This document shows, piece by piece, positions 186 to 63,066 of a stretch of 64,000 nt of DNA. The translations under genes were made by a program, and so were the position numbers. The stretch is from Microcella indica (lineage in GTDB: Bacteria; Actinomycetota; Actinomycetes; Actinomycetales; Microbacteriaceae), in the NCBI RefSeq assembly GCF_013414345.1, contig NZ_CP058670.1, forward strand, positions 1,054,001 to 1,118,000, read 5' to 3'. Every line of letters starts with the position of its first letter. Within the stretch, counting starts at the first letter, position 1. Below the pieces are notes generated by a model that worked only from the letters and a program-made list of their open reading frames with translations, made no database searches and had not been told where the DNA came from.

Positions 186-283
186 CTCCACAATTCAGGA
201 GTTCGGGATGCTCGCACCCCGTCGACACGCCGTGCGAGCATCCCGAACCGCCGTCTCCGAGCAGGCACTCCTGAATTGTGGAG
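186..283 (+). repeat. 98-bp inverted-end repeat, copy 1
   Basis: Full copy. The left end CTCCACAATTCAGGAG (186-201) and right end CTCCTGAATTGTGGAG (268-283) are perfect inverted repeats, extended by GT outside the left end and AC outside the right. The core motif CGACACGCC is at 223-231, 37 bases from the left edge. This copy also has a second, internal 17-bp inverted repeat around the core, each arm containing GGGATGCTCGCAC or its complement, so the transcript could fold as a stem within a stem. It lies between the BtpA-like gene and the helicase gene. Confidence 0.9.
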
Positions 284-302
284 ACGAAGCCGGTGTCGGT
301 GA

Positions 303-318
303 GTCCTGAGCTGTGGAG
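303..318 (+). repeat. Degenerate half-site of the 98-bp repeat
   Basis: GTCCTGAGCTGTGGAG matches the right end CTCCTGAATTGTGGAG at 13 of 16 positions and lies 35 bases beyond the start of the intact right end of copy 1. No second core motif or matching left end is present, so it looks like a remnant of an adjacent unit. Confidence 0.55.
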
Positions 319-353
319 ACTGTGACCCGGGCGGGTGGGGGAGACTGGAGGCG

Positions 354-2924
354 ATGACCTCCTCGCTGCTAGACCGCATGCCCGCCCCCTACGAGGCCGG
401 TGCTGCCTTCGACGCGATCGAGAACTGGGCGACCGACGAAGGCCTCACGCTCTACCCCGCGCAGGAGGAGGCGATCTTCGAGCTCGTCGCCGGCGCGCAT
501 GTGATCCTCGCCACCCCGACCGGCAGCGGCAAGAGCCTCGTCGCGGTCGCCGCCCACGCGATCGCCCTCGCGCAGGGCCAGCGCAGCTACTACACCGCCC
601 CCATCAAGGCGCTCGTGAGCGAGAAGTTCTTCGCCCTCGTGGAGATCTTCGGCGCGGAGAACGTCGGCATGGTCACGGGCGACAGCAGCGTCAACGGGGA
701 TGCGCCCATCGTCTGCTGCACGGCCGAGATTCTCGCGAATCAGGCTCTGCGCCACGGGACTGATGTGGAGGCGGGGCTCGTCGTCATGGACGAGTTCCAC
801 TACTACGCGGACCCCGAGCGGGGCTGGGCGTGGCAAGTGCCGCTGCTGGAATTGACCCACGCGCGGTTCCTGCTCATGAGCGCGACGCTCGGCGACGTCA
901 CGCCCATCGCCGAGGACCTCGAGCGCCGCACGGGCCACCCGGTGAGCGAGGTGACGCACGCCGAGCGGCCGATTCCGCTCACGTTCGACTACGTGAAGAC
1001 TCCCGTGCACGAGACCGTGCAGACGCTGCTCGACGACGGGCAAGCGCCGATCTACGTCGTGCACTTCAGCCAGGCGGCCGCGATGGAGCGCGCGCAAGCG
1101 CTGTCGAGCATCCGCATCATCACGCGGGAGCAGCGCGACGAGATCGCTGAGGCGATCGGCGACTTCCGCTTCACCACCGGATTCGGCACGACGCTCAGCC
1201 GTCTCGTGCGCTCGGGCATCGGCGTGCACCACGCCGGCATGCTGCCCAAGTACCGCCGACTCGTGGAGGTGCTCGCGCAGCGCGGACTGCTGCGCGTCAT
1301 CTGCGGCACCGACACGCTCGGGGTGGGCATCAACGTGCCCATCCGCACGGTGCTGCTCACGGCGCTCAGCAAGTTCGACGGCGAGAAGATGCGGCAGCTG
1401 AGCGCGCGCGAATTCCACCAGATCACGGGGCGCGCCGGTCGCGCCGGGTACGACACCGCCGGGCTCGTCGTCGTGCAGGCTCCCGACCACGAGGTCGAGA
1501 ACCACGCCGCGACCACCAAGGCGGGCAGCGACCCGAAAAAGAAGAAGAAGATCGTGCGCAAGTCGGCACCCGCCGGCTTCGTGACGTGGAGCGAGACGAG
1601 CTTCGAGCGGCTCATCGGCGGAGCGCCCGAGCCGCTCGAGAGCCGCATGCAGGTGTCGGCGGCCATGCTCATCAACCTCATCGCGCGCGGGGGAGACGTC
1701 TTCGCAGGCGCCCGCGCACTGCTCACGCAGAACCACGAGCCGCCGCACCGGCAGCGCGAGCTCGTGCGCCGCGCGCTCGGCATCGCCAAGACCCTCGTGC
1801 GCGCGGGCGTCGTCGTCATCGAGCCCGTCGGGCGCATCACGCTCACCGTCGATCTGCAGCCGAACTTCGCACTCAATCAGCCGCTCAGCCCGTTCGCGCT
1901 TGCCGTGATCGAGTCGCTCGACCCGGAGGACGACACCGCGACGGTCGCGCCGCCCGCGCCCGGCGTCGTTGACGAGAACACGGTCCCCGGCGCCGAGCTC
2001 GAGGCCGCCCCGCACTACGCGCTCGACGTCGTGAGCGTCATCGAGGCCACGCTCGACGACCCGCGCCCGGTGCTGCGCCAGCAGGAGCACAAGGCGCGCG
2101 GCGAGGCGATCGGCCGCATGAAGGCGCAGGGCATGGAGTACGACGAGCGCATGGAGGCGCTCGACGACATCACGCATCCGCGCCCGCTCGCCGACCTGCT
2201 CGAGGCCATGTTCGAGACCTACGCGGCCACCCAGCCGTGGATCCGCGACGTCGAGCTGCGCCCCAAGGCGGTCGTGCGCGACATGTTCGAGAAGGCCATG
2301 AGCTTCACCGAGTACGTGAGCCACTACCAGCTGGCCCGCAGCGAGGGCCTCCTGCTGCGCTACCTGAGCGACGCCGACCGCGCGTTCCGCCAGACCATCC
2401 CCGACGACGCGAAGACGCCCGATGTTCTCGACATCATCGAGTGGTTGCGCGAGCTCGTGCGGCAGGTCGACTCGAGCCTGCAAGACGAGTGGGATGCCCT
2501 CACCAACCCCGTCGACGACCCGAGCACCCCGATCGCACCGCCGCCCCCGCCCGACGTCACGACGAACCGCCGCGCGTTCACCGTGCTCGTGCGCAACGAG
2601 CTGTTCCGCCGCGTGCAGCTCGCGGCGCTGCAGCGCGACGACGACCTCGTCGAGCTCGACCCGGAGGCGGGCTGGCCCGAGGCGCTCGACGCCTACTACG
2701 CCGAGCACGAGACCATGGGCACGGCGGGCGGCGCGCGCGCAGCATCCCTGGTTCAGATTTCGGAGAATGATCCGGATGCTGGGCCCGGCTTCTGGAGCGT
2801 GCGCCAGGTCATCGACGACCCGGCTGGCGACCACGACTGGGGCATCCACGCGACCGTCGACCTCGCGCAGAGCGCGGAGCGCGGCGAAGCGGTCGTGCGC
2901 GTGGAGGGCCTGAAGCGCCTGTAG
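354..2924 (+). CDS. DEAD/DEAH-box RNA helicase with C-terminal DUF3516
   Basis: 856 residues. It has a superfamily 2 helicase core: a Q-type LYPAQEEAIF motif near residue 33, Walker A ATPTGSGKS at 53-61, Walker B DEFH at 146-149, an LMSATLGD motif III, and helicase C motifs including HHAGMLPKYRR and QITGRAGRAGYD. The C-terminal half matches the DUF3516 extension found with Ski2/Mtr4-like helicases of actinobacteria. The likely role is ATP-driven RNA unwinding in RNA processing or turnover; this is inferred from the family. A lysine-rich insert (DPKKKKKIVRKS) lies near residue 390, before the DUF3516 part. The ATG at 354 is preceded by a GGAGGC ribosome-binding site. Confidence 0.88.
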   Translation: MTSSLLDRMPAPYEAGAAFDAIENWATDEGLTLYPAQEEAIFELVAGAHVILATPTGSGKSLVAVAAHAIALAQGQRSYYTAPIKALVSEKFFALVEIFGAENVGMVTGDSSVNGDAPIVCCTAEILANQALRHGTDVEAGLVVMDEFHYYADPERGWAWQVPLLELTHARFLLMSATLGDVTPIAEDLERRTGHPVSEVTHAERPIPLTFDYVKTPVHETVQTLLDDGQAPIYVVHFSQAAAMERAQALSSIRIITREQRDEIAEAIGDFRFTTGFGTTLSRLVRSGIGVHHAGMLPKYRRLVEVLAQRGLLRVICGTDTLGVGINVPIRTVLLTALSKFDGEKMRQLSAREFHQITGRAGRAGYDTAGLVVVQAPDHEVENHAATTKAGSDPKKKKKIVRKSAPAGFVTWSETSFERLIGGAPEPLESRMQVSAAMLINLIARGGDVFAGARALLTQNHEPPHRQRELVRRALGIAKTLVRAGVVVIEPVGRITLTVDLQPNFALNQPLSPFALAVIESLDPEDDTATVAPPAPGVVDENTVPGAELEAAPHYALDVVSVIEATLDDPRPVLRQQEHKARGEAIGRMKAQGMEYDERMEALDDITHPRPLADLLEAMFETYAATQPWIRDVELRPKAVVRDMFEKAMSFTEYVSHYQLARSEGLLLRYLSDADRAFRQTIPDDAKTPDVLDIIEWLRELVRQVDSSLQDEWDALTNPVDDPSTPIAPPPPPDVTTNRRAFTVLVRNELFRRVQLAALQRDDDLVELDPEAGWPEALDAYYAEHETMGTAGGARAASLVQISENDPDAGPGFWSVRQVIDDPAGDHDWGIHATVDLAQSAERGEAVVRVEGLKRL

Positions 2925-2939
2925 CCGGGGTGCCCCGCG

Positions 2940-3740
2940 CTACTGGATGGGCGTCATGAAGACGAGGAACAGGGCGGGGGTGAAGATGCCGAGGCTCACG
3001 AGCCCCGCGGTGAGCAGCAGGGTGACGATGAGCGGCCACCAGCCGCGGCCCGCTTGGCGCTGCACGACGATGCCTCGTGCCGCGAGATAGCCGACGTTGC
3101 CGAGAAGCGCCCACCATCCGGAGGCGCGCTCGAGGTGTCCCCACTCATGCAGCTTCTCGCGGTCGCGCCGCACCCAGACGATGATCCACATGATGGGCAG
3201 AAGGCTCGCGGCGAGCACCCAGAACCAGGGCGTCGACTCGATGCCGGTGAGCACCGTCACGGCGAGCTGGGCGAGGAAGGCCACGAGGGGAGTGGCAGCG
3301 AGCATCCACGCTGACACGGTCGTCGTGCGCTCGGGCGTGTAGTCCATGGACTGCGCCGTCGTGTTCCACAGGTCGCTGCGGGTCACCGAGCGCGTGCCGA
3401 AGGTGCCGAGCGGGGTGGATCGCGCCTCGCCGCCCTCGGTCGTGGTCGAGGGAGCCGAGGTCGGCGTGGCGGAGTAGGGCACGGAGTACGAGTACGGCTC
3501 TTCGCCGACGGGGGCCGCGACGGCTGCTCCGCTGAGGTCGGTGGTCGTCGTCGCGGACGCAGCCTCGGTGGCCGTGCCGCCCTGCGCGACCGCGGCGCCG
3601 GGGGAGGCGGGCTCGCCGTGCGCGATCGGCTTGGGTCGAGTGTGCTGGGTCCACCGGGCGCCGTCCCACCAGCGCAGCCGCAGCGCGATCTCAGGGTCGT
3701 CGTACCACCCGGCGACGGGGAGGGTCGAACCTTCGGTCAT
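2940..3740 (-). CDS. DUF2510 membrane protein (first of three)
   Basis: 266 residues from the ATG at 3740; an upstream in-frame start lacks a good ribosome-binding site, whereas AGGA precedes this one. The N-terminus carries a DUF2510 motif (AGWYDDPEIALRLRWWDGARWTQH spread over about residues 9-32), a tryptophan-rich module of actinobacterial membrane and cell-envelope proteins. A low-complexity Ser/Thr/Ala/Pro linker follows, then about four hydrophobic segments in the last 130 residues. The likely topology is a cytoplasmic N-terminus with a membrane anchor at the C-terminus. The function is unknown. Two further DUF2510 genes lie immediately upstream on the same strand. Confidence 0.75.
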   Translation of the reverse strand: MTEGSTLPVAGWYDDPEIALRLRWWDGARWTQHTRPKPIAHGEPASPGAAVAQGGTATEAASATTTTDLSGAAVAAPVGEEPYSYSVPYSATPTSAPSTTTEGGEARSTPLGTFGTRSVTRSDLWNTTAQSMDYTPERTTTVSAWMLAATPLVAFLAQLAVTVLTGIESTPWFWVLAASLLPIMWIIVWVRRDREKLHEWGHLERASGWWALLGNVGYLAARGIVVQRQAGRGWWPLIVTLLLTAGLVSLGIFTPALFLVFMTPIQ

Positions 3741-3941
3741 GGGGATCCTCGGGAAGGGCGGGAGCTCGGCGGGGGTGCGGGTGTCACGATGCGCTGCGCG
3801 GCGGGGGTGGCCGGGGGTGAACGCAAGGCTCGTTGACGGCAAGTCTAGGGCGCGGGTGCGCGCGAGCCTACGACCATACAGTCCCCAGTAAGGGGGACTC
3901 GATGGGGTACAGGCCGACAGGCTGCTCCGCCGCCGAACAGG

Positions 3942-4253
3942 TCAGCCCGCGTCGCGCTCCAGGGCGCCGAGCATGCGCCACACCGTCGTCGTGAGTGCCG
4001 GATGGTCGAGCGCGATCTGACGCAGCACGCGATAGTTGCGGGCCGGCGAGGGCAACCGGTCGTGGTCGGCGCGGATCGACTCGGCCCGGAGCATCCACAC
4101 CACCAGTTCATCGACGGTGGGGAGCTCCGTCATGAAGTCCCACGGGTCCTCGCCGTCACGGCAGCGAGCGAGGATGACCGTCTGCAGCTCGTCGTGTGCC
4201 TCGGCGCGCAGAACCTCGAGGCTCGCGCCTCGGGGCCGGTCGCGTTCGCTCAC
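3942..4253 (-). CDS. Hypothetical protein, 103 residues
   Basis: The protein begins MSERDRPRGASLEVLRAEAHDE and is rich in charged and helical residues, with no signal peptide or membrane segment. I do not recognise a family. It sits between two DUF2510 genes on the same strand, 36 bases from the end of the next upstream gene, so it may be cotranscribed with them. Amino-acid composition and third-position GC look like real coding sequence. A soluble small regulator or adaptor is possible, but nothing in the sequence shows it. Confidence 0.55.
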   Translation of the reverse strand: MSERDRPRGASLEVLRAEAHDELQTVILARCRDGEDPWDFMTELPTVDELVVWMLRAESIRADHDRLPSPARNYRVLRQIALDHPALTTTVWRMLGALERDAG

Positions 4254-4288
4254 CCTTCGACCCTACGTCGAGGGAGGTGGGCGAAGGG

Positions 4289-5149
4289 TCAGAGCAGAGG
4301 CTCGATGGTCGCGAGCACGCCGGCGGGGTCCAGAGCCCACCACGTGCCGATGACGGCCGCCTGGGCGACCAGCCACACGTACAGCGGCCACGCGATGGCG
4401 CCGGTCGTGCGACCGATGCGCACACTGCGCACGGCCAGGTACACCGGCGGCACGACCAGTGCGGTCAGCCAGGGCGCCGTGCGCAGGTGGCCGGCGAGGG
4501 CCATGAGACGCGTGTCCTGCCCCGCGAGCGCCGCGTAGAGGATGAACGGAAGGATGACGGTGAGCCCGCGGGTCCAGGCGGAGCTCTCGGGCGGCAGGCT
4601 CGTGAAGACGGCGAAGATCAGGAGGGCCTGGGGGATGGGCATCGTCGCCATGAGCCAGACGGAGGCGGTGTAGACGCGCTGGCGCGGCTCGAGGGGCTCG
4701 GAGATGACGGCGCTGTCGCTCTCGCGACGCCGACGGGGCCGTGCCGTCTCGAGGTCGACGGCGCTCACGGGCGTCCGTGCGGAGCGGCGACCCGTGGGGG
4801 CCGGGCTCGGGTACGCCACCGAGGGCACGCTCGCCGAAGAGCTGGAGTACGCGGAGTCGGTGCTGGGGGAGTGCAGCGACATGCGGTGCGCAGCGCGCGC
4901 GGAGTCGCGCGGCGTGAGCGTCACGGGCGCCGACCCTGCGGGTGTGTACACGCTCGGCGCCGCGACCTGGTCGTTGATCTCCTGCAGGGGCTCACGCGAG
5001 ACCGGCGCCTGCACGGGCGCGAGTGCCTCGACGTGCTCGGTCCACTGCGCGCCATCCCACCAGCGCCGGTGCGACGCCTCGCCGCCGTGGGCTGTGGCGA
5101 TCGGGTCCGGATACCAGCCTGCTGGCACCTGAATCGCGGTCGTCGTCAT
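4289..5149 (-). CDS. DUF2510 membrane protein (second of three)
   Basis: 286 residues. The ATG at 5149 is chosen because AGGGGGA lies just upstream and because the protein then starts MTTTAIQVPAGWYPDP, right at the DUF2510 motif; a longer frame back to 5251 adds a Pro/Gly-rich leader without a ribosome-binding site. The order is DUF2510 (about residues 8-40, with RRWWDGAQWTEHV), a disordered Ser/Pro-rich linker of about 90 residues, then several hydrophobic helices. Overall design is the same as the neighbouring DUF2510 proteins, which suggests local duplication. Function is unknown. Confidence 0.75.
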   Translation of the reverse strand: MTTTAIQVPAGWYPDPIATAHGGEASHRRWWDGAQWTEHVEALAPVQAPVSREPLQEINDQVAAPSVYTPAGSAPVTLTPRDSARAAHRMSLHSPSTDSAYSSSSASVPSVAYPSPAPTGRRSARTPVSAVDLETARPRRRRESDSAVISEPLEPRQRVYTASVWLMATMPIPQALLIFAVFTSLPPESSAWTRGLTVILPFILYAALAGQDTRLMALAGHLRTAPWLTALVVPPVYLAVRSVRIGRTTGAIAWPLYVWLVAQAAVIGTWWALDPAGVLATIEPLL

Positions 5150-5383: not shown

Positions 5384-6958
5384 CTATCGAACAAACGAGA
5401 AGATGCCCCAATCGTCGACCTGCCAGGTGATCCAGCCGTTGGCGCGCTGCAGGCTCACGGTGACGACGAGGTTCTCGCCGGAGGAGTTGGTGGCGGGGCA
5501 CCGCAGCTGCTGGCCGATGAACAGGGGCGGTGATGCTGGACAGTCCACGTCGAGCATCGTGCCGATGGAGCGCGCATTCGCTTCGATCGTGGACGCAGCC
5601 TGGTCGGCGAAGACGCCGGGCATCGCGGCGATGATGAGGCCGGGAACAGCGAGAATGGATGCCCCCACCAGACCCGAGACGAGCAGCCACACCGCGACGG
5701 GGCCGAACCCGGCACCCGAGATGCGGCTCAGTCGCACGGCACGCGCGGCCAGGTACACGGGCGCGGTACCGAGGGCCCACAGCCAACTGGCGGGGGCGTC
5801 GATGCCGCGGCGGCGCAGGGTTCGGGCGTCGAAGTAGGCGAGTGCGGCCACGATCGGGTAGGGCACGATCCAGATGGCGGCCATGAAGATGAGGCTCGGG
5901 CCGGTCGTGAATGCGGCGACGACGAGCAGACTCAGCAGCAGCTGCATCATGGGCAGCAGCGCGATCGCCCAGGACTCGACGGTCTGCACGTTGCCGCTCG
6001 GGGCGCCGAGCGACTGGTGGGTGCCGGAGCGGCGCGTCTCGGACGCCGCGAGGGGCGACTCCTGCGAGTAGGGGGCGTACTGCGGTGCCCCGGGGGCCGA
6101 GGCGAACCCGGGTGCGGAGCCGTACTGCGGTGCGGAGCCGTACTGCGGCGCTGAGCCGTACTGCGGCGCTGAGCCGTACTGGGGTGCTGAGCCGTACTGC
6201 GGAGCGGAGCCGTACTGGGGCGCGCTCCCGTACTGGGGTGCCGAGCCGTACTGCGGCGCCGAACCCTGCTGGGGGGTGGAGCCGTAGTGCGGCGCGCTGC
6301 CCTGCTGCGGCGCGGAACCTGCGCCGAGATCCCACGGTGCGCTGCCGCTCGCCGAGACGGGGCCGGGCGTCGATCCTGGAGCGGAACCGGGCGCGCTGCC
6401 GCTGTCGCGCTGCAGCGGGACCCACGGCGAGGGCGCCGGGTCCTGCGGCGGCTTGAGCTCGGACTCGGCCTGAAGGTCGGCGAAGGCGGCTGCGGCGAAG
6501 GCCTCCGCCGCTGAGTTCGCGGGTCGCCCGCCCGCGGGAGCCGAGGAGGCGCTGCGGGGCGCGGCCGACTGCTGCGCCGCGGGCTGCTCGGCCTGGTCGC
6601 CGGGCTCGATGAGCTGCGGCACGGCGCCCGTCGTCGGCGGAGCGAGCTGGCGCAGGACGTTCGCCGTGGGCTGCTGCACGGCCGGCTGCTCGGGCTCGGA
6701 GCCCTCCCGTGCGGGGTCGTCGAGCGGAGCATCCTCGGGGGTCGACGCGGTACGGAGGTCTCGACGCCGGGGGAGGTCGTCGTCGGCGAACATCGTCGGA
6801 GCCGCGGGAGCGGTCGGTGCCTCCGTCGGCACCATCGGCTGGCGGGCGTCGGAGACGTGCTCGGTCCACGCGGTGTTGTCCCACCAGCGCAGCTGCGGCA
6901 GTCCGAGCGGGTCGGGATACCAGCCCGCCGGCACGCGACCGTAGTCGTCTTCTGCCAC
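5384..6958 (-). CDS. DUF2510 membrane protein with GSAPQY repeats and DUF4333-like tail
   Basis: 524 residues from a GTG at 6958. DUF2510 occupies about residues 9-36 (VPAGWYPDPLGLPQLRWWD). A long low-complexity region follows, including at least eleven hexapeptide repeats of the GSAPQY type near residues 216-281. About four transmembrane helices come next. The last 70 residues hold two cysteines (VDCPASPP and LRCPATNSSGE) and a GWITW motif, resembling the DUF4333 extracellular domain. The likely product is an envelope-anchored protein with a flexible stalk and an exported disulfide-bonded domain. The function is unknown. It is the first gene of the minus-strand DUF2510 group. Confidence 0.75.
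   Translation of the reverse strand: MAEDDYGRVPAGWYPDPLGLPQLRWWDNTAWTEHVSDARQPMVPTEAPTAPAAPTMFADDDLPRRRDLRTASTPEDAPLDDPAREGSEPEQPAVQQPTANVLRQLAPPTTGAVPQLIEPGDQAEQPAAQQSAAPRSASSAPAGGRPANSAAEAFAAAAFADLQAESELKPPQDPAPSPWVPLQRDSGSAPGSAPGSTPGPVSASGSAPWDLGAGSAPQQGSAPHYGSTPQQGSAPQYGSAPQYGSAPQYGSAPQYGSAPQYGSAPQYGSAPQYGSAPQYGSAPGFASAPGAPQYAPYSQESPLAASETRRSGTHQSLGAPSGNVQTVESWAIALLPMMQLLLSLLVVAAFTTGPSLIFMAAIWIVPYPIVAALAYFDARTLRRRGIDAPASWLWALGTAPVYLAARAVRLSRISGAGFGPVAVWLLVSGLVGASILAVPGLIIAAMPGVFADQAASTIEANARSIGTMLDVDCPASPPLFIGQQLRCPATNSSGENLVVTVSLQRANGWITWQVDDWGIFSFVR
6113..6312 (-). repeat. 18-bp tandem repeat encoding GSAPQY
   Basis: About eleven consecutive 18-bp units encode GSAPQQ, GSAPHY, GSTPQQ and eight GSAPQY hexapeptides within the large DUF2510 gene. 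Units differ mainly at third positions. Because the unit length is a multiple of three, copy-number change would alter stalk length without shifting the frame. Confidence 0.85.
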
Positions 6959-10103: not shown

Positions 10104-12677
<2,574 letters not shown>

Positions 12678-17066: not shown

Positions 17067-17164
17067 CTCCGCAATTCAGGAGTTGCGATGCCGCAGGGCT
17101 CCTCGACACCCCGAAGCGCCCGCTTCCAGGGCGCTGGACGAGGGCGCGCTCCTGAATTGTGGAG
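17067..17164 (+). repeat. 98-bp inverted-end repeat, copy 2
   Basis: Left end CTCCGCAATTCAGGAG (one change from consensus) at 17067-17082, right end perfect at 17149-17164. The core motif is CGACACCCC at 17104, exactly 37 bases from the left edge as in copy 1. It lies in the convergent holA/rpsT gap. Confidence 0.88.
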
Positions 17165-17234
17165 ATGGCGTTCCCGGATAGAAACGAGCGTCGACATGCC
17201 CGTGAGCGAGCGCCGGTTCTCCACAATTCAGGAG
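17149..17234. repeat. Partial middle unit linking copies 2 and 3
   Basis: The segment between the right end of copy 2 and the left end of copy 3 contains CGACATGCC (17192-17200), one base from the core motif. The shared ends therefore flank a third, shorter unit of 86 bases, giving an alternating array end-core-end-core-end-core-end. Confidence 0.55.
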
Positions 17235-17316
17235 ATCGAGTCCATGCGGGCCCGCCGACACGCCGGTGGAGCGCTCTCACGCCCTGATGCAGCACACTGA
17301 CTCCTGAATTGTGGAG
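17219..17316 (+). repeat. 98-bp inverted-end repeat, copy 3
   Basis: Perfect left end at 17219-17234 and perfect right end at 17301-17316. CGACACGCC begins at 17256, 37 bases from the left edge. Length 98, same orientation as copy 2. Confidence 0.9.
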
Positions 17317-17320
17317 ATAG

Positions 17321-29797: not shown

Positions 29798-29894
29798 CTC
29801 CACAATTCAGGAGTCGGCGCCGGCTGAGGGGCCGTTCGGGGTCAGGTACGGCGTGTCGGAAAGCTTCTGCCGCACGATCTCCTGAGTTGTGGAG
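29798..29894 (-). repeat. 98-bp inverted-end repeat, copy 4 (reversed)
   Basis: Left end perfect at 29798-29813, right end CTCCTGAGTTGTGGAG at 29879-29894. The core motif is on the minus strand (GGCGTGTCG at 29850-29858), 36 bases from the right edge, so this copy is inverted relative to copies 1-3. Length 97. It lies after the deo operon. Confidence 0.9.
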
Positions 29895-34727: not shown

Positions 34728-34824
34728 CTCCACAATTCAGGAGATCGGGATGCTCGCACCGCGCGACACGCCCGGCAGAGCATCCCGGCCCTCGTTCTGC
34801 AGTGTCGCCTCCTGAATTGTGGAG
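34728..34824 (+). repeat. 98-bp inverted-end repeat, copy 5
   Basis: Perfect ends at 34728-34743 and 34809-34824, core CGACACGCC at 34764-34772 (offset 36). Length 97. Like copy 1 it carries internal arms CGGGATGCTC and GAGCATCCCG around the core. It lies in the divergent gap between the monooxygenase gene and hemW. Confidence 0.9.
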
Positions 34825-46732: not shown

Positions 46733-49691
<2,959 letters not shown>

Positions 49692-52703: not shown

Positions 52704-52710
52704 CCCCGCC

Positions 52711-54423
52711 ATGGCGCACATCCTCGTCATCGGCAGCGGCATGGCCGGTCTCATCACGGCGATCCGGGCCGCGCGGCACCACGATGTGACGATCGTCACG
52801 AAAGACGTGCTGACCGCGGGTTCGACGTCGTGGGCGCAGGGCGGCATCGCCGCCGCCGTGTTCGGCGACGATAGCCCTGCGCTGCACGCGCGCGACACGC
52901 TCGACGCCGGCGCGGGGCTGTGCGACCCCGAGGCCGTGCGGGTGCTCACGCAGGAGGGGCCAGGGCGCATCCTCGACCTCGTCTCGCTCGGCGTGGCCTT
53001 CGACGCGGCGGACGGAGCCGTGCCGCCGCTCGAGCCCGTGCGTGATTGGGCGCGCGGCCTGGAGGCGGCGCACTCGGTCGCGCGCATCCTGCACGCCGGC
53101 GGAGACGCGACCGGTCGCCTCATCGAGGCCGCTCTCGCCGACGCGGTGGGCACCGGGCGCATCCGGGCGCGGGAGTTCGCGCGCGCAACCAGGCTCATCG
53201 TCGAGGGCGGGGCCGTGACGGGCGCGGTTGTCGAGTCGCACGCCGCTGGGGTGCGCGGTGCGCGCCCAACCGAGCACGGCGCCGTCAGCGAGACGATCTC
53301 GGCCGACGCTGTCGTGCTCGCCACCGGTGGTAGCGGGCGCCTCTACCGGCACACGACGAACCCGCCGGTGTCGACGGGCGACGGCGTCGTGCTCGCCTAC
53401 GAGGCCGGTGCCGCCCTCGCGGATCTCGAGTTCGTGCAGTTCCACCCCACTGTGCTCGCGGGGGGAGGGCTCGTCTCGGAGGCAGTGCGCGGCGAGGGCG
53501 CGACGCTGCTCGACGCTTCCGGGCGTCGCTTCATGCTCGACATTGACCCCCGCGGAGAGCTCGCGCCGCGCGACATCGTGGCGCGCGCGATCGCCCGGCA
53601 GATGCGCCTGCAGGATGGCCGGCCGGTGCTGCTCGACGCCACGATGCTCGGCGCCTCGGTGCTGCGCGAGCGATTCCCGACGATCGACGCGCTCGTGCGC
53701 GCGACGGGGGTCGACTGGACGCGCACGCCCGTACCGGTGACCCCTGCGGCGCACTACGCCATGGGCGGCGTGCTCACCGACATGGATGGTCGCACGACGC
53801 TCCCGGGCCTGTTCGCTGTGGGCGAAACCTCGTCGACGGGCGTGCACGGGGCCAACCGCCTCGCGTCCAACTCGCTGCTCGAGGCCATCGTCGTCGGCTG
53901 GCGCGCGGGCGACGCCGTCTCGGCACCGCACGAGCCGCCCGCGCTCGCGCTGGCAACCTCCACCATTCAGGAGTCGCGGGGCGCCGCTACCGTCTCCACA
54001 ATTCAGGAGTCGGCGTCGAACGGCATCACCTCCGGCGCCGTGCCACTCGAGCTCGCGATCGCGCCCGACGCCCTGCGAAACGGGGGGCGCGCGTGGACGG
54101 CCTCGGACATCCGCGACCGCGCCTGGCAGTCGCTCGGGCTCGAGCGCGACGGTGCATCTTTGGCCGTGCTGGCCCAGGAACTCGCGGATGCCCGGCCCGC
54201 CGACGACGAAGCGCACAGTCTTCTGCCGCTCGCGCGCCTGACCTGCGCGGCCGCTGCCGCTCGCACCGAATCGCGCGGCGCGCACGCCCGCACCGACTAC
54301 CCGCAGCTCGACCCTGCGCAGCGCGTGCGGCGTGTCGTCGTGCGCCCCACGACAGAATCTCCTGAATTGTGGAGATCTGCCGCGCGAGTCGCGGCACCCG
54401 CGCCCTCGGAGGTTCACGCATGA
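52711..54423 (+). CDS. nadB: L-aspartate oxidase with two repeat-derived insertions
   Basis: 570 residues. FAD motif ILVIGSGMAGLITAIRA, TSWAQGGIAAAVFGDDS, LATGGSGRLYRHTTNP, FVQFHPTVL, RGEGATLLD and HYAMGGVLTDMDGRT are as in NadB. It oxidises aspartate to iminoaspartate for NadA. The linker after VGWRAGDAVSAPH carries two in-frame copies of the repeat left end (STIQES twice). The C-terminal tail after RTDYPQLDP carries the repeat's reversed core and right end (TTESPELWRS). Both lie outside the catalytic domains, so function may be kept. The stop overlaps nadC. Confidence 0.93.
   Translation: MAHILVIGSGMAGLITAIRAARHHDVTIVTKDVLTAGSTSWAQGGIAAAVFGDDSPALHARDTLDAGAGLCDPEAVRVLTQEGPGRILDLVSLGVAFDAADGAVPPLEPVRDWARGLEAAHSVARILHAGGDATGRLIEAALADAVGTGRIRAREFARATRLIVEGGAVTGAVVESHAAGVRGARPTEHGAVSETISADAVVLATGGSGRLYRHTTNPPVSTGDGVVLAYEAGAALADLEFVQFHPTVLAGGGLVSEAVRGEGATLLDASGRRFMLDIDPRGELAPRDIVARAIARQMRLQDGRPVLLDATMLGASVLRERFPTIDALVRATGVDWTRTPVPVTPAAHYAMGGVLTDMDGRTTLPGLFAVGETSSTGVHGANRLASNSLLEAIVVGWRAGDAVSAPHEPPALALATSTIQESRGAATVSTIQESASNGITSGAVPLELAIAPDALRNGGRAWTASDIRDRAWQSLGLERDGASLAVLAQELADARPADDEAHSLLPLARLTCAAAAARTESRGAHARTDYPQLDPAQRVRRVVVRPTTESPELWRSAARVAAPAPSEVHA
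53958..54009 (+). repeat. Two left half-sites of the 98-bp repeat inside nadB
   Basis: CTCCACCATTCAGGAG (53958-53973) and CTCCACAATTCAGGAG (53994-54009), both translated as STIQES, 36 bases apart, which keeps the reading frame. Confidence 0.8.
54329..54374 (-). repeat. Right half of the 98-bp repeat in the nadB 3' end
   Basis: A perfect right end at 54359-54374 and the reversed core GGCGTGTCG at 54329-54337, with the normal 37-base spacing. The matching left end is absent at its expected place (about 54277), so this is a truncated, reversed copy. Confidence 0.75.
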
Positions 54424-55340: not shown

Positions 55341-56542
55341 GCCTCATCGACCTCGACCAGGCCGCGACGGGCGCCGTGCGCCGCGAGGTGCTCGAGGCGA
55401 TGTGGCCGTACCTCACCGGCGACTACGGCAACCCGTCGAGCACGCACTCTCTGGGGCGCAGCGCGGCGGAAGGTCTCGACCGAGCTCGCGCACTGATCGC
55501 TCGTGCGACCGGCGTGCGCCCACCCCAGGTCGTGCTCACCGGCGGCGGCACCGAGGCCGACAACCTCGCCGTGATCGGCTTGACCCTGGGCGCGATCGCG
55601 AGCGGCCGAGGTCGACATGTGATTGTGAGCGCCGTCGAGCACGAGGCGGTGCTCGCCGCGGCCGACTACCTGGAGCGCTGGCACGACGTCGAGGTCACGC
55701 GCCTGCCCGTCGACAATGCAGGACGAACGGATGCCGCGCTCCTGCGCACCGCCCTCCGAGACGACACCGCCCTCGTGAGCGTGCAGCACGCCAACAACGA
55801 GGTCGGCACGGTGCAACCCGTGCGGGCGCTGGGCGAGGAGGCTCATGCGCGTGGCGCGCTCTTCCACGTCGACGCCGTGCAGACCGCGGGGTGGATGTCG
55901 CTCGACCTGGCAGAGAGTCCTGAGCTGTCGACGGGAGCGCTCGCGCAGGCTGGCCTGTCGAGCGCTGACGCCGTGAGCATCTCGGCCCACAAGCTCGGCG
56001 GGCCCAAGGGCGTCGGCGCGCTCATCCTGCACAGCCGCGCGCGGCTCGAGCCGATCATCCACGGCGGTGGTCAGGAGGGCGACCGTCGCAGCGGCACCGA
56101 GAACGTGGCGGGGGCCGTGGGGCTCGCCGTCGCGCTGCAGCTCGCGGGGGAGGAGCGCGAGGCGCATCCCGACCGGTGGAGTGCGGAAGCGCAGCGACGC
56201 GACGCGCTCATCGCCGCCGTCGTCGAGGCGGTGCCCGGCGCCCAGCTCACCGGCCACGCGGTCGAGCGGCTGCCCGCACACGCGTCGTTCGTCGTGCCGG
56301 GGCTCGGCGGCGAGCCGCTGCTGCAGGCTCTCGACGACCGCGGCATCCTCGCCTCGAGCGGCTCGGCGTGCGCCGCCGGGCGCGACGACCCCTCGCCCGT
56401 GCTGCTCGCGATGGGCTACGACCCCGACACGGCGCGCACGGCGATCCGCTTCACCTGGGGCGCCTCCACAAATCAGGAGTCGCTCGACGCCGCCGTGCGC
56501 ACTCTCGCGGAATCAGCGGCGATTCTGCGCGGCGAACGCTGA
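55337..56542 (+). CDS. Cysteine desulfurase of the NAD operon
   Basis: 401 residues of the NifS/IscS type. The PLP lysine is in SISAHKLGGPKGVGAL, the active Cys in SSGSACAAGRDDPSPVLLAMG, and GGTEADNLAV and VQHANNEVGTVQPV are conserved. It probably supplies sulfur for the NadA iron-sulfur cluster, as nifS-like genes often accompany nadABC. Two odd points: an insertion LAESPELSTGALAQAG before SSADAVSISAHK, encoded by a sequence like a degenerate right end; and TWGASTNQESLDAA near the C-terminus, encoded by a left-end-like sequence. Confidence 0.9.
   Translation: MSLIDLDQAATGAVRREVLEAMWPYLTGDYGNPSSTHSLGRSAAEGLDRARALIARATGVRPPQVVLTGGGTEADNLAVIGLTLGAIASGRGRHVIVSAVEHEAVLAAADYLERWHDVEVTRLPVDNAGRTDAALLRTALRDDTALVSVQHANNEVGTVQPVRALGEEAHARGALFHVDAVQTAGWMSLDLAESPELSTGALAQAGLSSADAVSISAHKLGGPKGVGALILHSRARLEPIIHGGGQEGDRRSGTENVAGAVGLAVALQLAGEEREAHPDRWSAEAQRRDALIAAVVEAVPGAQLTGHAVERLPAHASFVVPGLGGEPLLQALDDRGILASSGSACAAGRDDPSPVLLAMGYDPDTARTAIRFTWGASTNQESLDAAVRTLAESAAILRGER
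55917..55932 (+). repeat. Degenerate right half-site inside the desulfurase gene
   Basis: GTCCTGAGCTGTCGAC shares its first twelve bases with the half-site at 303-318. It encodes SPELS in a segment absent from usual IscS proteins. Confidence 0.4.
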
Positions 56543-56571
56543 CGAGCAGCGCGATCTCCTGAATTGTTGAG
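56464..56571 (+). repeat. Imperfect pair of repeat ends around the desulfurase stop
   Basis: CTCCACAAATCAGGAG (56464-56479) in the coding region and CTCCTGAATTGTTGAG (56556-56571) after the stop, 108 bases overall. No CGACACGCC core lies between them, so this is an aberrant copy or ends that moved separately. Confidence 0.6.
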
Positions 56572-56622
56572 GCGCGGGCGGGGGAGCGCCCACGGCGCAG
56601 GCGCACGCGCGATACTGGGGCG

Positions 56623-57435
56623 GTGCCGACCTACCGAGATGAAGCCGTCGTGCTGCGCACCCACAAGCTGGGCGAAGCCGACCGCATCATCACGATGCTC
56701 GGCCGGCAGCACGGCAAGATCCGCGCGGTCGCGAAGGGCGTGCGCCGCACGGCGAGCCGCTTCGGCAGCCGCCTCGAGCCGTTCATGGTCGCCGACCTGC
56801 AGCTGTACCGCGGCCGCAGCCTCGACATCATCCAGCAGGCGGTGAGCCTCGGCTCGTACGGCGACGAGATCAGCGCCGACTACGCCCGATACACGGCCGC
56901 GAGCGCGATGGTCGAGACGGCCGACAAGGTCACGGGCGACGACGGCGGCGGCCCCCAGCAGTACCTCCTCCTCGTGGGAGCCCTGCGCTCTCTCTCGCGC
57001 GGCGAGCACCACGCGAGCCTCACGCTCGACTCGTACCTGCTGCGCGCGCTGTCGATCGCGGGCTGGGCGCCGACCTTCGCCGACTGCGCGGTGACGGGCG
57101 CGCCAGGCCCGCACAGCGCGTTCGTCGTGCAACTGGGCGGCATGGTGGCGGATGGCGTGGCGCCTCCCGGCGCCCCGCGCCTGAGCCCGGCCACGCTCGA
57201 GCTGCTCGGCGCCCTCCTGACCGGCGACTGGCCGACCGCGGACGCCGCCGACGAGCGCACCCGTGCGCAGGCGAGCGGGCTCATCGCCGCCTACACGCAG
57301 TTCCACCTCGAGCGCGGGCTGCGCTCGCTGCCCCATGTCGACCGCACCCTGCACGTCGAGCCCGCGCTGCACCTCGCCGCCGAGGAACGCCCTCGCCCCG
57401 CGCCGGTGACCTCCACAACTCAGGAGTTTGCGTGA
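56623..57435 (+). CDS. recO: DNA repair protein RecO
   Basis: 270 residues. The N-terminal OB fold reads [51 protein letters not shown], the RecO signature. The C-terminal helical region follows; actinobacterial RecO often lacks a full zinc finger, as here. It loads RecA with RecR in gap repair. The last residues STTQEFA come from the left end of repeat copy 7. The GTG at 56623 has GATACT six bases upstream, a possible leaderless -10. It overlaps the longer uppS start by 4 bp. Confidence 0.92.
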
Positions 57436-57508
57436 GCAGAGCATCCCGACACGCCGAACCGCTGCGCCCTCTCGACTGGACGGGCGAGCATCCTCCTGAA
57501 TTGCGGAG
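57411..57508 (+). repeat. 98-bp inverted-end repeat, copy 7, spanning the recO/uppS junction
   Basis: Left end CTCCACAACTCAGGAG (57411-57426), core CGACACGCC (57447-57455, offset 36), right end CTCCTGAATTGCGGAG (57493-57508); length 98. The left end gives the last recO codons and an AGGAG before GTG 57432. The right end gives GGAG before GTG 57516. Both candidate uppS starts therefore use ribosome-binding sites from the repeat. Confidence 0.9.
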
Positions 57509-58229
57509 AGAAGTCGTGCCGCAGCACGTCGCCATCGTCATGGACGGCAACGGCCGCTGGGCCAACCGCCAGGGCCTCACGCGCGTCGAGGGCCACCGCG
57601 CGGGCGAGGCGAGCCTGCTCGATGTCGTCGCGGGCGCCGTGCAGATCGGCGTGAAGCACTTGAGCGTCTACGCGTTCAGCACCGAGAACTGGAACCGCAG
57701 CCCCGACGAGGTGCGCTTCCTCATGGGCTTCAACCGGGAGGTGCTGCGCCGCCGTCGCGACCAGCTCGACGCCTGGAACGTGCGCATCCGCTGGGCGGGG
57801 CGTCGCCCTCGACTGTGGCGCAGCGTCATCAGCGAGCTCGAGGAGGCGCAGGCCCGCACGGCCGGGAACACGGGCCTCACGCTGACGATGTGCGTCAACT
57901 ACGGCGGCCGCGTCGAGATCGTGGATGCTGTGCGCGCGATCGGCGAGGAGGTCGCCGCCGGGCGGCTCACGCCGAGCCGCATCACCGAGCGCACGATCGC
58001 CCGCCACCTCTACGAGCCCGACCAGCCCGACGTCGACCTGTTCGTGCGCTCGAGCGGCGAGCAGCGCACGAGCAACTTCCTGCCGTGGCAGAGCGCCTAC
58101 GCCGAGATGGTGTTCCTCGACACTCTGTGGCCCGACTTCCGGCGCCGCCACCTGTGGGATGCGATCGCCGACTACGCCTCGCGCGACCGCCGCTTCGGTG
58201 GCGCGGTCGACGCGCCCGCCGGCCAGTAG
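57432..58229 (+). CDS. uppS: Isoprenyl (undecaprenyl) diphosphate synthase
   Basis: 265 residues from GTG 57432, or 237 from GTG 57516. The catalytic motif is [17 protein letters not shown] with the metal-binding Asp; [29 protein letters not shown] and [26 protein letters not shown] are conserved. It makes the Z-polyprenyl carrier for cell-wall synthesis. The first 28 residues of the long form are encoded by repeat copy 7 ([25 protein letters not shown]), so the native start is uncertain. Both candidate starts have good spacing to a GGAG-type site. Confidence 0.93.
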
Positions 58230-58323
58230 CGCGCAGCGAGGCGACACCCGCATCGCGCCGACATGAGCATCTGAGCAGTCGAGGATGCTCGACTCGCGCC
58301 CCTCGCGGGTGAATGCTGTCGGC

Positions 58324-59388: not shown

Positions 59389-59427
59389 CGGGTCGGGCGG
59401 CCGCGCGCGGCTCACTAGGCGGCTCAC

Positions 59428-59433
59428 TAGACT
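59428..59433 (+). promoter_or_regulatory. -10 box upstream of glyS
   Basis: TAGACT lies within the repeated phrase GGCTCACTAG (two copies at 59409-59430) and 46 bases before the glyS start. No T-box leader was seen. Confidence 0.4.
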
Positions 59434-59479
59434 AGGCCCTCGTGCCGCGCACCCAGCTCGGCAGAAGAGGGAGACCTAC

Positions 59480-60865
59480 GTGGCATCCACCAGTCGACTC
59501 GATGCGGTCATCGCGCTCGCCAAGCGGCGCGGTTTCGTGTTCCAGGCGGGCGAGATCTACGGGGGTTCTCGGTCTGCGTGGGACTACGGGCCCCTCGGCG
59601 TCGAGCTCAAGGAGAACATCAAGCGCCAGTGGTGGCGCTCGATGGTCACGCGCCGCGACGACGTCGTCGGGCTCGACTCGAGCGTCATCCTGCCGCGCAA
59701 GGTGTGGGAGGCGTCCGGCCACGTCGACGTCTTCAGTGACCCCCTCGTCGAGTGCCTGAACTGCCACAAGCGGTACCGCGCCGACCACCTCGAGGAGGAG
59801 TTCGAGGAGAAGAAGGGCCGCGCGCCCGAGGGCGGGCTCGCCGAGGTCGTGTGCGTCAACTGCGGCACGCGCGGGCAGTGGACCGAGCCGAAGGAGTTCT
59901 CGGGCCTGCTCAAGACCTACCTGGGCCCCGTCGAGGAGGAGTCGGGCCTGCACTACCTGCGCCCCGAGACCGCGCAGGGCATCTTCGTGAACTTCGTCAA
60001 CGTGCTCAACGCCGCGCGCGTCAAGCCGCCGTTCGGCATCGGGCAGATCGGCAAGTCGTTCCGCAACGAGATCACTCCCGGAAACTTCATCTTCCGCACG
60101 CGCGAGTTCGAGCAGATGGAGATGGAGTTCTTCGTCGAGCCGGGCAGTGACGAGGAGTGGCACCAGTACTGGATCGACGCGCGCATGGCGTGGTACACCG
60201 ATCTCGGCATCAACCCCGAGAACCTGCGGCTGTACGAGCACCCGGCCGAGAAGCTCTCGCACTACTCCAAGCGCACGGTCGACATCGAGTACCGCTTCGG
60301 CTTCTCCGGCTCGGAGTTCGGCGAGCTCGAGGGCGTCGCCAACCGCACCGACTTCGACCTCTCGACGCACGCTGCGGCCTCTGGAGTCGACCTGTCGTAC
60401 TTCGACCAGGGCAAGAACGAGCGCTGGACGCCATACGTCATCGAGCCCGCGGCTGGCCTTACGCGCTCGCTCATGGCGTTCCTCGTGGACGCCTACGCCG
60501 AGGACGAGGCGCCCAACACGAAGGGCGGCGTCGACGTGCGGACCGTGCTGCGCCTCGACCGCAGGCTGGCCCCCGTCAAGGCCGCGGTGCTGCCGCTGTC
60601 GCGCAACGAGAAGCTGTCTCCCGTCGCGCGCGAGCTCGCCGACACGCTGCGCCAGCACTGGAACGTCGACTTCGACGACGCGGGCGCGATCGGTCGTCGC
60701 TACCGCCGTCAGGACGAGATCGGCACGCCGTTCGCCATCACGGTCGACTTCGACACCCTCGACGACCAGGCCGTGACGGTGCGCGAGCGCGACACCATGC
60801 AGCAGGAGCGCATCCCGCTGGCCAAGCTCGAGGGGTACCTCGCGGCAGAGCTGCTCGGCGCGTAG
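59480..60865 (+). CDS. glyS: Glycine--tRNA ligase (class II, dimeric type)
   Basis: 461 residues. Motif 1/2 region [17 protein letters not shown], a zinc-binding segment ([13 protein letters not shown] and [12 protein letters not shown]), [25 protein letters not shown] (motif 2) and the motif 3 element [20 protein letters not shown]. It charges tRNA-Gly. The GTG at 59480 is preceded by GAAGAGGGAGA. It is the alpha2 type typical of actinobacteria, not the alpha/beta type. Confidence 0.95.
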
Positions 60866-60945
60866 CCGCGCCCCCGCGGCGCGAGCCCGCGCGGCCTCCC
60901 GTACCGAGCGACGCGTGCCGCCGAGCACGCCCCCGCGAGTTCGGT

Positions 60946-61042
60946 CTCCACAATTCAGGAGTCGCGGCGTGAGACAGGGCATCCTGGGGCCATTGTCGGC
61001 GTGTCGCGCGCGGGCGGCGACGCGAACTCCTGAGTTGTGGAG
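60946..61042 (-). repeat. 98-bp inverted-end repeat, copy 8 (reversed)
   Basis: Perfect left end 60946-60961, right end CTCCTGAGTTGTGGAG 61027-61042, core on the minus strand (GGCGTGTCG, 60998-61006, 36 bases from the right edge). Length 97. Orientation as in copy 4, and the same right-end variant. It lies between glyS and the DUF559 gene. Confidence 0.9.
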
Positions 61043-61147
61043 GCGCGTGGTGCGCGACGAGTCCTCCCCAGCGAGCACGGGTGGCGTGACATTCCGACAT
61101 CGTGCGGAGCGCCGGTCACCGGCTGTGGGGGCGGGCATCCTGCCGCC

Positions 61148-62107
61148 ATGGATGCCCGAGCTCTCGTCGTCGCGCACGGCGGCGCACTCGACCGGCGTCG
61201 GTTGGTCGAGCTGGGCGCGACGGATCACGATCTGCGCGTTGCGCTGAAGCAAGGCGGGCTCAACCGGCCTCGGCGCGGCTGGCACTCGAGCTGGGCCGAA
61301 GACGACCCGCGGTTCCGGGCGATGCGCGTGGGCGGGCGGCTCACCGGACTGAGCGCGATCGCCGCACTGGGCGGCTGGGTGCTCGGCACGCATCCGCTCC
61401 ACGTCGCGGTGCCGACCAACGCGGCGCGATTGCGCAGTCAGTGGCGGCGTGAGGTTCCCTGGGCGGATGCCCGGCCCGACGGCGTCGTCGTGCACTGGGT
61501 CGCGGCATCCCACGATCGGGGTGAGTCGACCGGTGTCGTGCCGCTCCTCGAGGCGCTCGAACTCGTGTGCAGGGTCGAGCCGCTCGAGGAGGCATTAGCG
61601 GTGATCGACTGGGCGCTCACCTCGGGCCGGATCGACCGCATTGATGGTGCCGTGCTGGCCGAACGGCTGGGGCCGCTCAGCGCGCTCGTGGAGCTCGCTG
61701 ACGAGCGCTGCGAGTCATTGCCCGAGAGTCTCGCCCGCACTCGATTGCGCGCCGCGGGACTGCAGGTGACCTCGCAGGTGCACTGGAGGGGAGGGCTTGA
61801 GCGCATCGACCTGGTGGTCGAGGGAGTCGTCGCGCTCGAGGTCGATGGCGAGGAGTTTCACCTGCACACGTTCGAGAAAGACCGGTGGCGCGACCTCGAA
61901 CTGACCGATGCGGGGTACCACGCGCTGCGTCCGAGCGCCCGGCAGGTGTTCGGCCAGTGGCCCGTGGTGCAGGCTGCGGTGGAGCGCGCGCTGCAGGCGC
62001 GCGGCATCCATGTGCATCTCCACAATTCAGGAGTCGAGGCCCTCCAGCACCCCGCGACACGCCGGTGGGCGGCCCAGCACGCCGCTCCACCTGTACCCGA
62101 CTCCTGA
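61148..62107 (+). CDS. AbiEi-like N-terminal domain plus DUF559 nuclease-fold protein, repeat-terminated
   Basis: 319 residues. The N-terminal 40 residues (GGALDRRRLVELGATDHDLRVALKQGGLNRPRRGWH) match the winged-helix domain of AbiEi-type proteins. The C-terminal part has GLERIDLVVEGVVALEVDGEEFHLHTFEKDRWRDLELTDAGYHALRP, a DUF559/Vsr-like nuclease fold with the conserved Asp, Glu and His. Such proteins are abundant in actinobacteria and their role is unknown; no toxin partner lies nearby. The natural end near ALQARGI is followed by repeat copy 9: LHNSG comes from its left end and the TGA stop lies in its right end. Confidence 0.75.
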   Translation: MDARALVVAHGGALDRRRLVELGATDHDLRVALKQGGLNRPRRGWHSSWAEDDPRFRAMRVGGRLTGLSAIAALGGWVLGTHPLHVAVPTNAARLRSQWRREVPWADARPDGVVVHWVAASHDRGESTGVVPLLEALELVCRVEPLEEALAVIDWALTSGRIDRIDGAVLAERLGPLSALVELADERCESLPESLARTRLRAAGLQVTSQVHWRGGLERIDLVVEGVVALEVDGEEFHLHTFEKDRWRDLELTDAGYHALRPSARQVFGQWPVVQAAVERALQARGIHVHLHNSGVEALQHPATRRWAAQHAAPPVPDS

Positions 62108-62116
62108 ATTGTGGAG
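62018..62116 (+). repeat. 98-bp inverted-end repeat, copy 9
   Basis: Perfect ends at 62018-62033 and 62101-62116, core CGACACGCC at 62055-62063 (offset 37), length 99. It forms the 3' end of the DUF559 gene and lies 44 bases before the DsbA-family gene. Confidence 0.9.
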
Positions 62117-62160
62117 GTGACCGAAGGGAATACGCCCGCGGCGGTCGCGTTGACTCCAGC

Positions 62161-62832
62161 ATGAGCGAGCCGCTGAGTGTGCAGATATGGTCGGACGTGC
62201 AGTGCCCCTGGTGCTACATCGGCAAGCGCAAGTTCGAGGCCGCGCTGGCCGAGCTCGCGGCCGACCCCGAGGCCCCGCAGGTCGAGGTCGTGTACCGCTC
62301 CTTCGAGCTCGCACCCGACACGCCCGTCGACTTCGAGGGGACCCCCGTCGACTACCTCAGCCAGCGCAAGGGCATCGCCCCCGAGCAGGCGCACGCGATG
62401 ATCGACCGCGTCACGGGCATCGCCGAGTCGGTCGGGCTCGAGTACCGCTACGACGACATCCACCAGACCAACACGGTGCTCGCGCACGAGCTGCTGCACT
62501 TCGCGAAGGCGCACGGCAAGCAGCTCGAGCTCAAGGAGCGCCTGCTGCGCGCCTACTTCACCGAAGGTCGTCACATCGGCCGCGCTAATGACCTCGCCGA
62601 GCTCGCCGCCGAGGTGGGGCTCGACCACGACGAGGCGCAGGCCGCACTCACCGAGCACACCTATCTGGCCGACGTGAAGGCCGACATGGCGCAGGCGGTG
62701 GCGTACGGCATCCAGGGCGTGCCGTTCTTTGTGATCGATGACCGATACGGCATATCGGGAGCCCAGGAGACCGCCCATTTCGTCGCCGCCCTGAAGCAGG
62801 CGGCGGCGGAGCGCACCGAGGCGCCAGCATGA
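62161..62832 (+). CDS. DsbA-family oxidoreductase (FrnE type)
   Basis: 223 residues. The thioredoxin-fold DsbA family active site is IWSDVQCPWCYIGKRKFE (CPWC, residues 13-16). RSFELAPDTPVDFEGTPVDYLSQRKGI and the GIQGVPFFVIDDRYGISGAQ cis-Pro loop identify the FrnE/2-hydroxychromene-2-carboxylate isomerase-like branch. There is no signal peptide, so it acts in the cytoplasm, perhaps as a disulfide oxidoreductase in stress response. Its stop overlaps a small ORF by 4 bp. Confidence 0.88.
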   Translation: MSEPLSVQIWSDVQCPWCYIGKRKFEAALAELAADPEAPQVEVVYRSFELAPDTPVDFEGTPVDYLSQRKGIAPEQAHAMIDRVTGIAESVGLEYRYDDIHQTNTVLAHELLHFAKAHGKQLELKERLLRAYFTEGRHIGRANDLAELAAEVGLDHDEAQAALTEHTYLADVKADMAQAVAYGIQGVPFFVIDDRYGISGAQETAHFVAALKQAAAERTEAPA

Positions 62833-62999
62833 ACGAGGATGCTCGGCCGCAGCCCCTCACCCTCCTGACCTCCACGGCTCCGGGCGCCGAGCTCGCCGCC
62901 TGCGAGGGCGATTCCTGCCTCGTCCCGTCGAGCATCGCCGCGAACCTGCCCCTCCCGGCAGGCGGCCGTCTCCACAACTCAGGAGATCGCGCACGCTGA
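62829..62999 (+). CDS. Small protein, 56 residues, ending in the repeat
   Basis: Starts with an ATGA overlap with the DsbA-family gene: MNEDARPQPLTLLTSTAPGA, then LAACEGDSCLVPSSIAANL. Two cysteines in CEGDSC could be a redox partner or metal site for the upstream protein. The last ten residues (LHNSGDRAR after GGR) are read from the left end and core-proximal part of repeat copy 10, so the original C-terminus is probably lost. I do not recognise a family. The coupling and codon pattern make it a likely real gene. Confidence 0.5.
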   Translation: MNEDARPQPLTLLTSTAPGAELAACEGDSCLVPSSIAANLPLPAGGRLHNSGDRAR

Positions 63000-63066
63000 G
63001 CCGTGCGACACGCCGACATCGCCCCGCGGATGCTCTGCCTCGGGCCGTGACTCCTGAATTGTGGAG
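62970..63066 (+). repeat. 98-bp inverted-end repeat, copy 10
   Basis: Left end CTCCACAACTCAGGAG (62970-62985), core CGACACGCC (63006-63014, offset 36), perfect right end 63051-63066; length 97. Same left-end variant as copy 7. It lies in the convergent gap before the YbaK gene. Confidence 0.9.

Follow-up and report, generated by a model that had tools for sequence, protein, structure and literature searches.

The dispersed repeats studied here are probably the paired recognition sites of the product of a linked gene (61148-62107), a predicted AbiEi-like DNA-binding protein that also has a Vsr-type nuclease domain. The window, by which we mean the whole 64,000-bp stretch of Microcella indica DNA that was analysed, covers positions 1,054,001-1,118,000 of the source genome (G000), a single contig of 2,585,348 bp. 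It contains 11 pairs and 26 end matches, while 0 and 0 were found in each of 10 Markov-simulated windows, which excludes chance.

Paired ends, cores and spacing

As shown in Table 1, the elements are distributed along the window in genes and in the gaps between them. The preliminary description listed ten copies of 97-99 bp with 16-bp inverted ends and a core 36-37 bases from one edge, eight of them forward and two (29798 and 60946) reversed. All of this was confirmed, but the list was incomplete, as the 108-bp pair, the 381-bp pair and the extra single end had been left out. Among the 20 ends of the ten copies, 14 were exact and six had one mismatch, namely CTCCGC at 17067 and 57493 and AACT for AATT at 29879, 57411, 61027 and 62970. 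The window also carries a tandem array of 18-bp repeats in 11 registers (6057-6344) inside a minus-strand ORF (5384-6958), and two neighbouring DUF2510 proteins are encoded on the minus strand (2940-5149). The other proteins of the window, examined with 50 NCBIfam/Pfam queries (some repeated), have mostly housekeeping functions; the regulators among them are a response regulator, an NrtR-like protein and a sugar-binding regulator.

Table 1. Elements and partner gene in the window, numbered from its first base.
Feature	Position	Strand	Remarks
Element, 98 bp	186..283	+	Shares 81% of its interior with the element at 1,045,710 in the genome
Element, 98 bp	17067..17164	+	Core CGACACCCC
Element, 98 bp	17219..17316	+	holA-rpsT gap
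Element, 97 bp	29798..29894	-	
Element, 97 bp	34728..34824	+	Gap between divergent genes, hemW to the right
Element, 98 bp	48823..48920	+	Directly after leuA; inside the 3' part of a predicted minus-strand ORF (48759-49691)
Extra single end	53958..53973	+	36 bp outside the next end
Long element, 381 bp	53994..54374	-	Within nadB; core at normal spacing from the right end
Pair, 108 bp	56464..56571	.	Over the stop codon of a nifS-like gene; best core match has 3 mismatches
Element, 98 bp	57411..57508	+	Spans the end of recO and the start of uppS; substitutions in coding sequence
Element, 97 bp	60946..61042	-	Left bracket, upstream of the partner gene's probable start
Partner gene, 319-aa protein	61148-62107	+	Between elements 60946 and 62018
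Element	62018..62116	+	Right bracket, covers the 3' end of the partner gene
Element, 97 bp	62970..63066	+	

A search of the complete genome and of related Microbacteriaceae for paired ends gave 23 elements in the source genome and facing pairs elsewhere too. There were 50 end matches with 0-2 mismatches in the source genome. Forty-seven of these belong to the 23 elements (46 paired ends and the extra end at 53958), and the other three are lone matches with two mismatches. Sixteen of the 23 elements lie between 1,045,710 and 1,160,005, a stretch of about 114 kb. Directly after a 122-bp element at 1,159,884 there is a small ORF (L105:2091-2471, G000 about 1,160.1 kb), in which a nuclease-type domain was recognised by eye and which had no Pfam match.

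With a loose pattern, pairs were found in 24 of 26 Microcella genomes, and the end word varies by Microcella species, the forms being CTCCACAAYTCAGGAG, a GGAA variant, GTCGACAACTCAGGAC and GTCAACAACTCAGGAC. The strict CTCC pattern was found in Microcella only (3 of 398 genomes, 1 of 85 genera) and had no match in viral contigs. A second end class, TTCGGAAAYTCAGGA, forms facing pairs, mostly clustered, in 12 of 199 Microbacteriaceae genomes representing 10 of 78 genera. A pair of the GTCGAC class, a word typical of other Microcella species, is present in two CTCC-class genomes (G000 2,451,073-2,451,168 and G009:C7:27033-27128).

The spacing of the ends is quantised. All 158 pairs with a start-to-start spacing of 56-112 fall at 59-60, 69-71, 80-83, 90-95 or 103-106, with a best period of 11.0-11.3 bp, in a set whose loci were picked for holding elements and in which a few pairs were counted twice at overlapping loci. 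Steps of about 11 bp point to two bound proteins that meet on one face of the DNA. A helical repeat of 11 bp is described for bacterial DNA loops in vivo (PMC8501960). The core is nearly invariant in the CTCC class; the GTC and TTCGG classes have a weak core or none. Inspection gave no clear rule linking the orientation of the core to the side of the gene. Extra ends were also seen about 33-36 bp outside a pair or in tandem with it (L008:1466-1795, L136:805-957 and L128:9736-9901), which suggests higher-order binding.

The gene at the centre of the array

Two of the copies in the preliminary description bracket the partner gene. Its open frame runs from 61037, and in the close orthologue L022 a stop precedes the Met at 61148. 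Residues 1-185 of the protein were modelled as an AbiEi-like two-domain fold with an N-terminal winged helix (match to 6y8q), and residues 186-290 as a nuclease fold of the Vsr/EDxHD type, like that of I-Bth0305I (structure matches 3r3p and 1vsr); the pLDDT of the model was 84.6. Pfam matches of the nuclease part to the MTES_1575 and DUF559 REase-like families were below the cut-off. E193, D221, E231, H238, D245, R246 and D249 were invariant in 11 aligned sequences, and E193, D221, E231, H238 and D245 are putative active-site residues. The gene is located next to glyS and a DsbA-like gene, a position that recurs in several other genera, and no AbiEii-type toxin was seen among the neighbouring genes scanned. 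A homologue at E 1e-5 or better was present in 137 of 199 Microbacteriaceae genomes.

The elements are centred on this gene. From the TTCGG elements alone, its site was predicted at about 1664.4-1665.4 kb in G046 and about 1793.8-1794.8 kb in G191, and tblastn confirmed both. The gene also has brackets on both sides in G062 and G138, and on a single strict side in G073 and G054; in G108 it is 0.6 kb from an element, and two elements lie within 2.3 kb of a second copy of the gene in G046. The pooled element density fell about 800-fold, from 0.50/kb within 2 kb of the gene to 0.0006/kb beyond 320 kb (8 genomes, 100 elements of which 98 were binned, with 15 of the 16 elements of G191 listed). When each of the eight genomes was taken singly, a random centre matched the centring of the elements on the gene in 0.1-2.3% of draws.

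A two-sided bracket score for pairs of the same motif was determined for 63 distinct genes. Forty of these reached at least 37, and the best of 800 controls with shuffled flanks scored 36. The genes that passed were 30 of the 40 at 43% identity or more and 10 of the 22 below; the 23 that failed comprised 10 of 40, 12 of 22 and one not classed. The window's own gene is among the failures because the search region was narrow. At least 40 of the 63 genes have a pair upstream, and at least 40 have one at their 3' end.

Homologues with about 30-40% identity elsewhere in the genomes often had a bracket of facing pairs with a word of their own. In 12 paralogue stretches of 20 kb each (L172-L183), six passed the bracket score, L175, L179 and L181 were bracketed by eye, and L173, L177 and L183 were not; these stretches showed brackets, one with a third pair, and no array. 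That third pair adjoins a paralogue of the source genome itself (L172:9130-10420, G000 about 2,149-2,150 kb), which is bracketed by its own CGTGTTCGCAATTCAG-type pairs.

Presence, loss and origin of the sites

Elements and gene occur together. Of the 26 Microcella genomes, 23 had both elements and a close orthologue (at least 219 bits, against 117 for the next match), and G018 and G019 had neither (Fisher p 0.009, genomes counted as independent); G021, which is 71% complete, had two elements and no orthologue was found in it. Outside Microcella, an orthologue of at least 190 bits was found in 11 of the 12 genomes that have strict TTCGG pairs and in 5 of the 183 that lack them (p 1.8e-13, genomes counted as independent), where the 190-bit line was set by us, scores are continuous below it, and the ten best candidates were scored in many genomes. 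The five gene-positive genomes without strict pairs (G219, G106, G069, G242 and G135) had brackets with variant words. The exception was G066, with two strict TTCGG pairs (C3:668162 and C4:527665) and no close orthologue; these pairs may be relics, or may belong to another paralogue. The single strict pair of G166 lies 253 kb away from the gene, which is bracketed by variant pairs.

Among the recO loci that could be read past glyS, strict pairs were present in 9 of 10 with the orthologue and in 0 of 13 without it; the tenth orthologue-bearing locus, L027, had a bracket with a variant word. This count leaves out L061, L076 and L089, whose homologue has less than 41% identity, as well as L078 and the loci ending before or at glyS. 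L078 is cut off inside the gene and has a pair, L076 has a bracket with a word of its own, and L061 and L089 are without a clear bracket.

G019 (locus L025) is nested in Microcella as the sister of L033 with 100% support. Since it is nested in the genus, and since the gene is found at glyS-dsbA in several other genera, gene loss in G019 is the simplest reading. Its gene-free glyS-dsbA gap contains no pair. At uppS, the differences between L025 and L033 amount to 12 of 32 positions in the ends, 3 of 9 in the core, 5 of 57 elsewhere in the interior and 7 of 62 in the flanks, compared with 0 of 32, 1 of 9, 13 of 57 and 12 of 62, respectively, between L033 and the more distant L030. The ends and core of this one element have thus changed about four times as much in G019 as the bases between them. 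Where the gene is lost, the sites seem to fade.

The same relative reveals how elements arise. At uppS, the alignment with element-free L025 is gap-free across the two ends and the core. At nifS, the protein of element-free L025 aligns without a gap, its sequence is plainly unlike the end word, and the site-bearing residues read STNQES versus TTTAEQ. The gap-free alignments mean that the ends are substitutions within coding DNA, and at both loci tested, uppS and nifS, the repeat arises by point mutation in place. In nadB, the left end falls in a variable linker whose alignment contains gaps and therefore decides nothing. In other Microcella the elements are at orthologous places, most with the same odd lengths (381 bp at nadB, 108 bp at the nifS-like gene and 98 bp at recO/uppS). 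The preliminary description had offered a mobile element or a regulatory or protein-binding element, and had named identical placement in relatives as an argument against mobility. The orthologous placement does count against mobility, and with gap-free, element-free alleles at uppS and nifS the mobile reading (MITE or REP) fails where it is testable, while the protein-binding form of the other proposal fits. The remark that no transposase lies in the window was not contradicted.

Mechanism, alternatives and known systems

The protein that binds the pairs is very likely the product of gene 61148-62107, and the geometry of the sites makes it likely that binding works by looping. Proteins on two facing ends would touch on one helix face across a small DNA loop, and the clade-specific core would lie between them. 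Two pairs bracket the gene, and many diverged paralogues are likewise bracketed by pairs with a word of their own. Within this subfamily, additional pairs have been written into the surrounding 100 kb or so, by point mutation at the two testable loci, and they seem to persist only while the gene is present.

How the sites accumulate can be answered tentatively. The nuclease may bias repair or recombination toward the chromosome that bears the sites and is linked to the gene, a homing-like drive without insertion. This bias is favoured because the sites arise in place, go together with altered residues, thin with distance and are accompanied by a nuclease fold of the homing and mismatch-repair kind. 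In its general form, which we regard as possible rather than probable, a single non-inserting chromosomal gene might rewrite the DNA around it base by base by biasing repair or recombination, more weakly at greater linkage distance, and each diverged paralogue would have its own word; such a gene could be selfish or self-preserving. Against drive, more than 20 sites per genome would be a hazard if the protein cut freely. Furthermore, the identity between G000 and G009 was 90.1-93.6% in the window bins, 91.1-96.0% in four stretches 0.26-1.36 Mb away, and 97.5-97.8% in two nearer stretches (62-82 kb on one side and 22-42 kb on the other), which are not centred on the gene. As identity is not highest at the gene, there is no sign of extra exchange there, and this counts against drive.

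The leading alternative, which we consider unlikely, is that the protein is only an autoregulator and its nuclease part incidental, the distal pairs being auxiliary operators that loop to raise the local concentration or soak up excess protein. AbiEi-family proteins do autoregulate at paired inverted repeats, one bracket is upstream of the gene start, and element density is roughly inverse to distance, a falloff that would resemble a contact probability. However, the second bracket at the 3' end and the invariance of the putative active-site residues speak against it, and a pair 80 kb away should hardly touch the promoter. Less likely still is a self-marking or anti-replacement defence, in which the nuclease would attack incoming homologous DNA without pairs and so shield the gene and its neighbourhood. 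The Vsr/EDxHD fold and a gene-centred array that decays after gene loss would suit such a defence, but no modification enzyme or partner gene was found among the scanned neighbours. The partner protein had no match in phage records and one weak match in plasmids, which says little about targets.

It is very improbable that the pairs serve to organise the chromosome as centromere-like or domain-like sites, in the way that parS or matS do. The clustering within one domain of about 115 kb is compatible with this, as is the location of the gene in the terminus half: wherever the gene and the best dif match share a contig (15 genomes), the two are 0.10-0.44 Mb apart. This steady distance can also stem from the conserved glyS-dsbA gene order, and the sites follow the gene, as in its second copy in G046 and in the bracketed paralogues elsewhere. 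Matches to dif-like and parS-like sequences were present in 16 of 16 genomes searched, some with several, and GC skew from sampled stretches was too noisy to use.

A MITE or REP would account for dispersed copies with inverted ends and a roughly constant length, and can be given almost no weight. Insertion into empty sites (MITE, REP or REPIN) was not what uppS and nifS, the two loci tested, showed. Interiors shared by descent were not found either: mean interior identity was 0.36 (153 pairs of 18 source-genome elements), where composition alone predicts 0.29. The earlier statement that the interior is not conserved is thus right on average but wrong for two pairs of copies, the elements at 186 and 1,045,710 (46 of 57 bases alike, 0.81) and those at 60946 and 62970 (35 of 56, 0.62), which favour a mobile reading and indicate that element duplication or conversion also occurs. 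The first two (186-283 and genome 1,045,710-1,045,807) are 8.5 kb apart and have an internal hairpin, and G020 also has similar neighbouring copies, at 377,599 and 377,984. In six elements compared between the window and L022, 189 of 192 end positions were identical, versus 594 of 688 in the interiors and 745 of 913 in the flanks, and the ends at orthologous places are species-specific. A structured RNA with the two ends paired as a stem, for which their complementarity speaks, can likewise be given almost no weight: the window gave no Rfam match at the gathering threshold, five of the ten copies have unlike ends, copies lie between convergent genes and over start and stop codons, and the spacing goes in helical-turn steps.

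The titles and abstracts returned by open-licence PMC full-text searches contained no description of such a repeat-nuclease system. A broad family of uncharacterised genes is tied to specific DNA sites, which makes their function testable, as a site, a likely partner, a spacing rule and a natural gene-loss control can now be named. Long, strict paired sites arise by point mutation in housekeeping coding sequence and seem to decay once the gene is gone, and we know of no precedent for paired sites that arise in this way near one gene and decay after its loss. If the drive reading were true, it would amount to homing without insertion.

Residues 1-185 of the partner protein have a fold like that of AbiEi and its mycobacterial relative Rv2827c (6y8q), members of a winged-helix family that binds inverted repeats at promoters. 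AbiEi is described as binding cooperatively to two 23-bp inverted repeats that are separated by 3 bp at its own promoter and as bending the DNA, and Rv2827c as binding without positive cooperativity (PMC7319586). In contrast, the partner protein has a C-terminal nuclease domain and is encoded beside glyS and a DsbA-like gene, and the pairs described here are about 82 bp start to start, flank the gene on both sides and spread over about 100 kb. MTES_1575 and DUF559, which match in the nuclease part, have been described at the level of domain families, and MTES_1575 has been called a novel Vsr REase (PMC3710099).

The fold of residues 186-290 is common to Vsr and I-Bth0305I. Unlike for I-Bth0305I, no intron or intein was seen here, the sites are not an insertion target, and many of them lie near the gene, made by point mutation where tested. 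A gene inserted in its own target, the trait of a homing endonuclease, was not found, as the gene is located between two whole pairs. For MTES_1575 and DUF559 we know of no target sites. Finally, parS, matS and DNA uptake sequences are short words enriched in chromosomes, some of which evolve in place, whereas the pairs described here are spaced in helical turns, contain a core and are centred on one nuclease-like gene.
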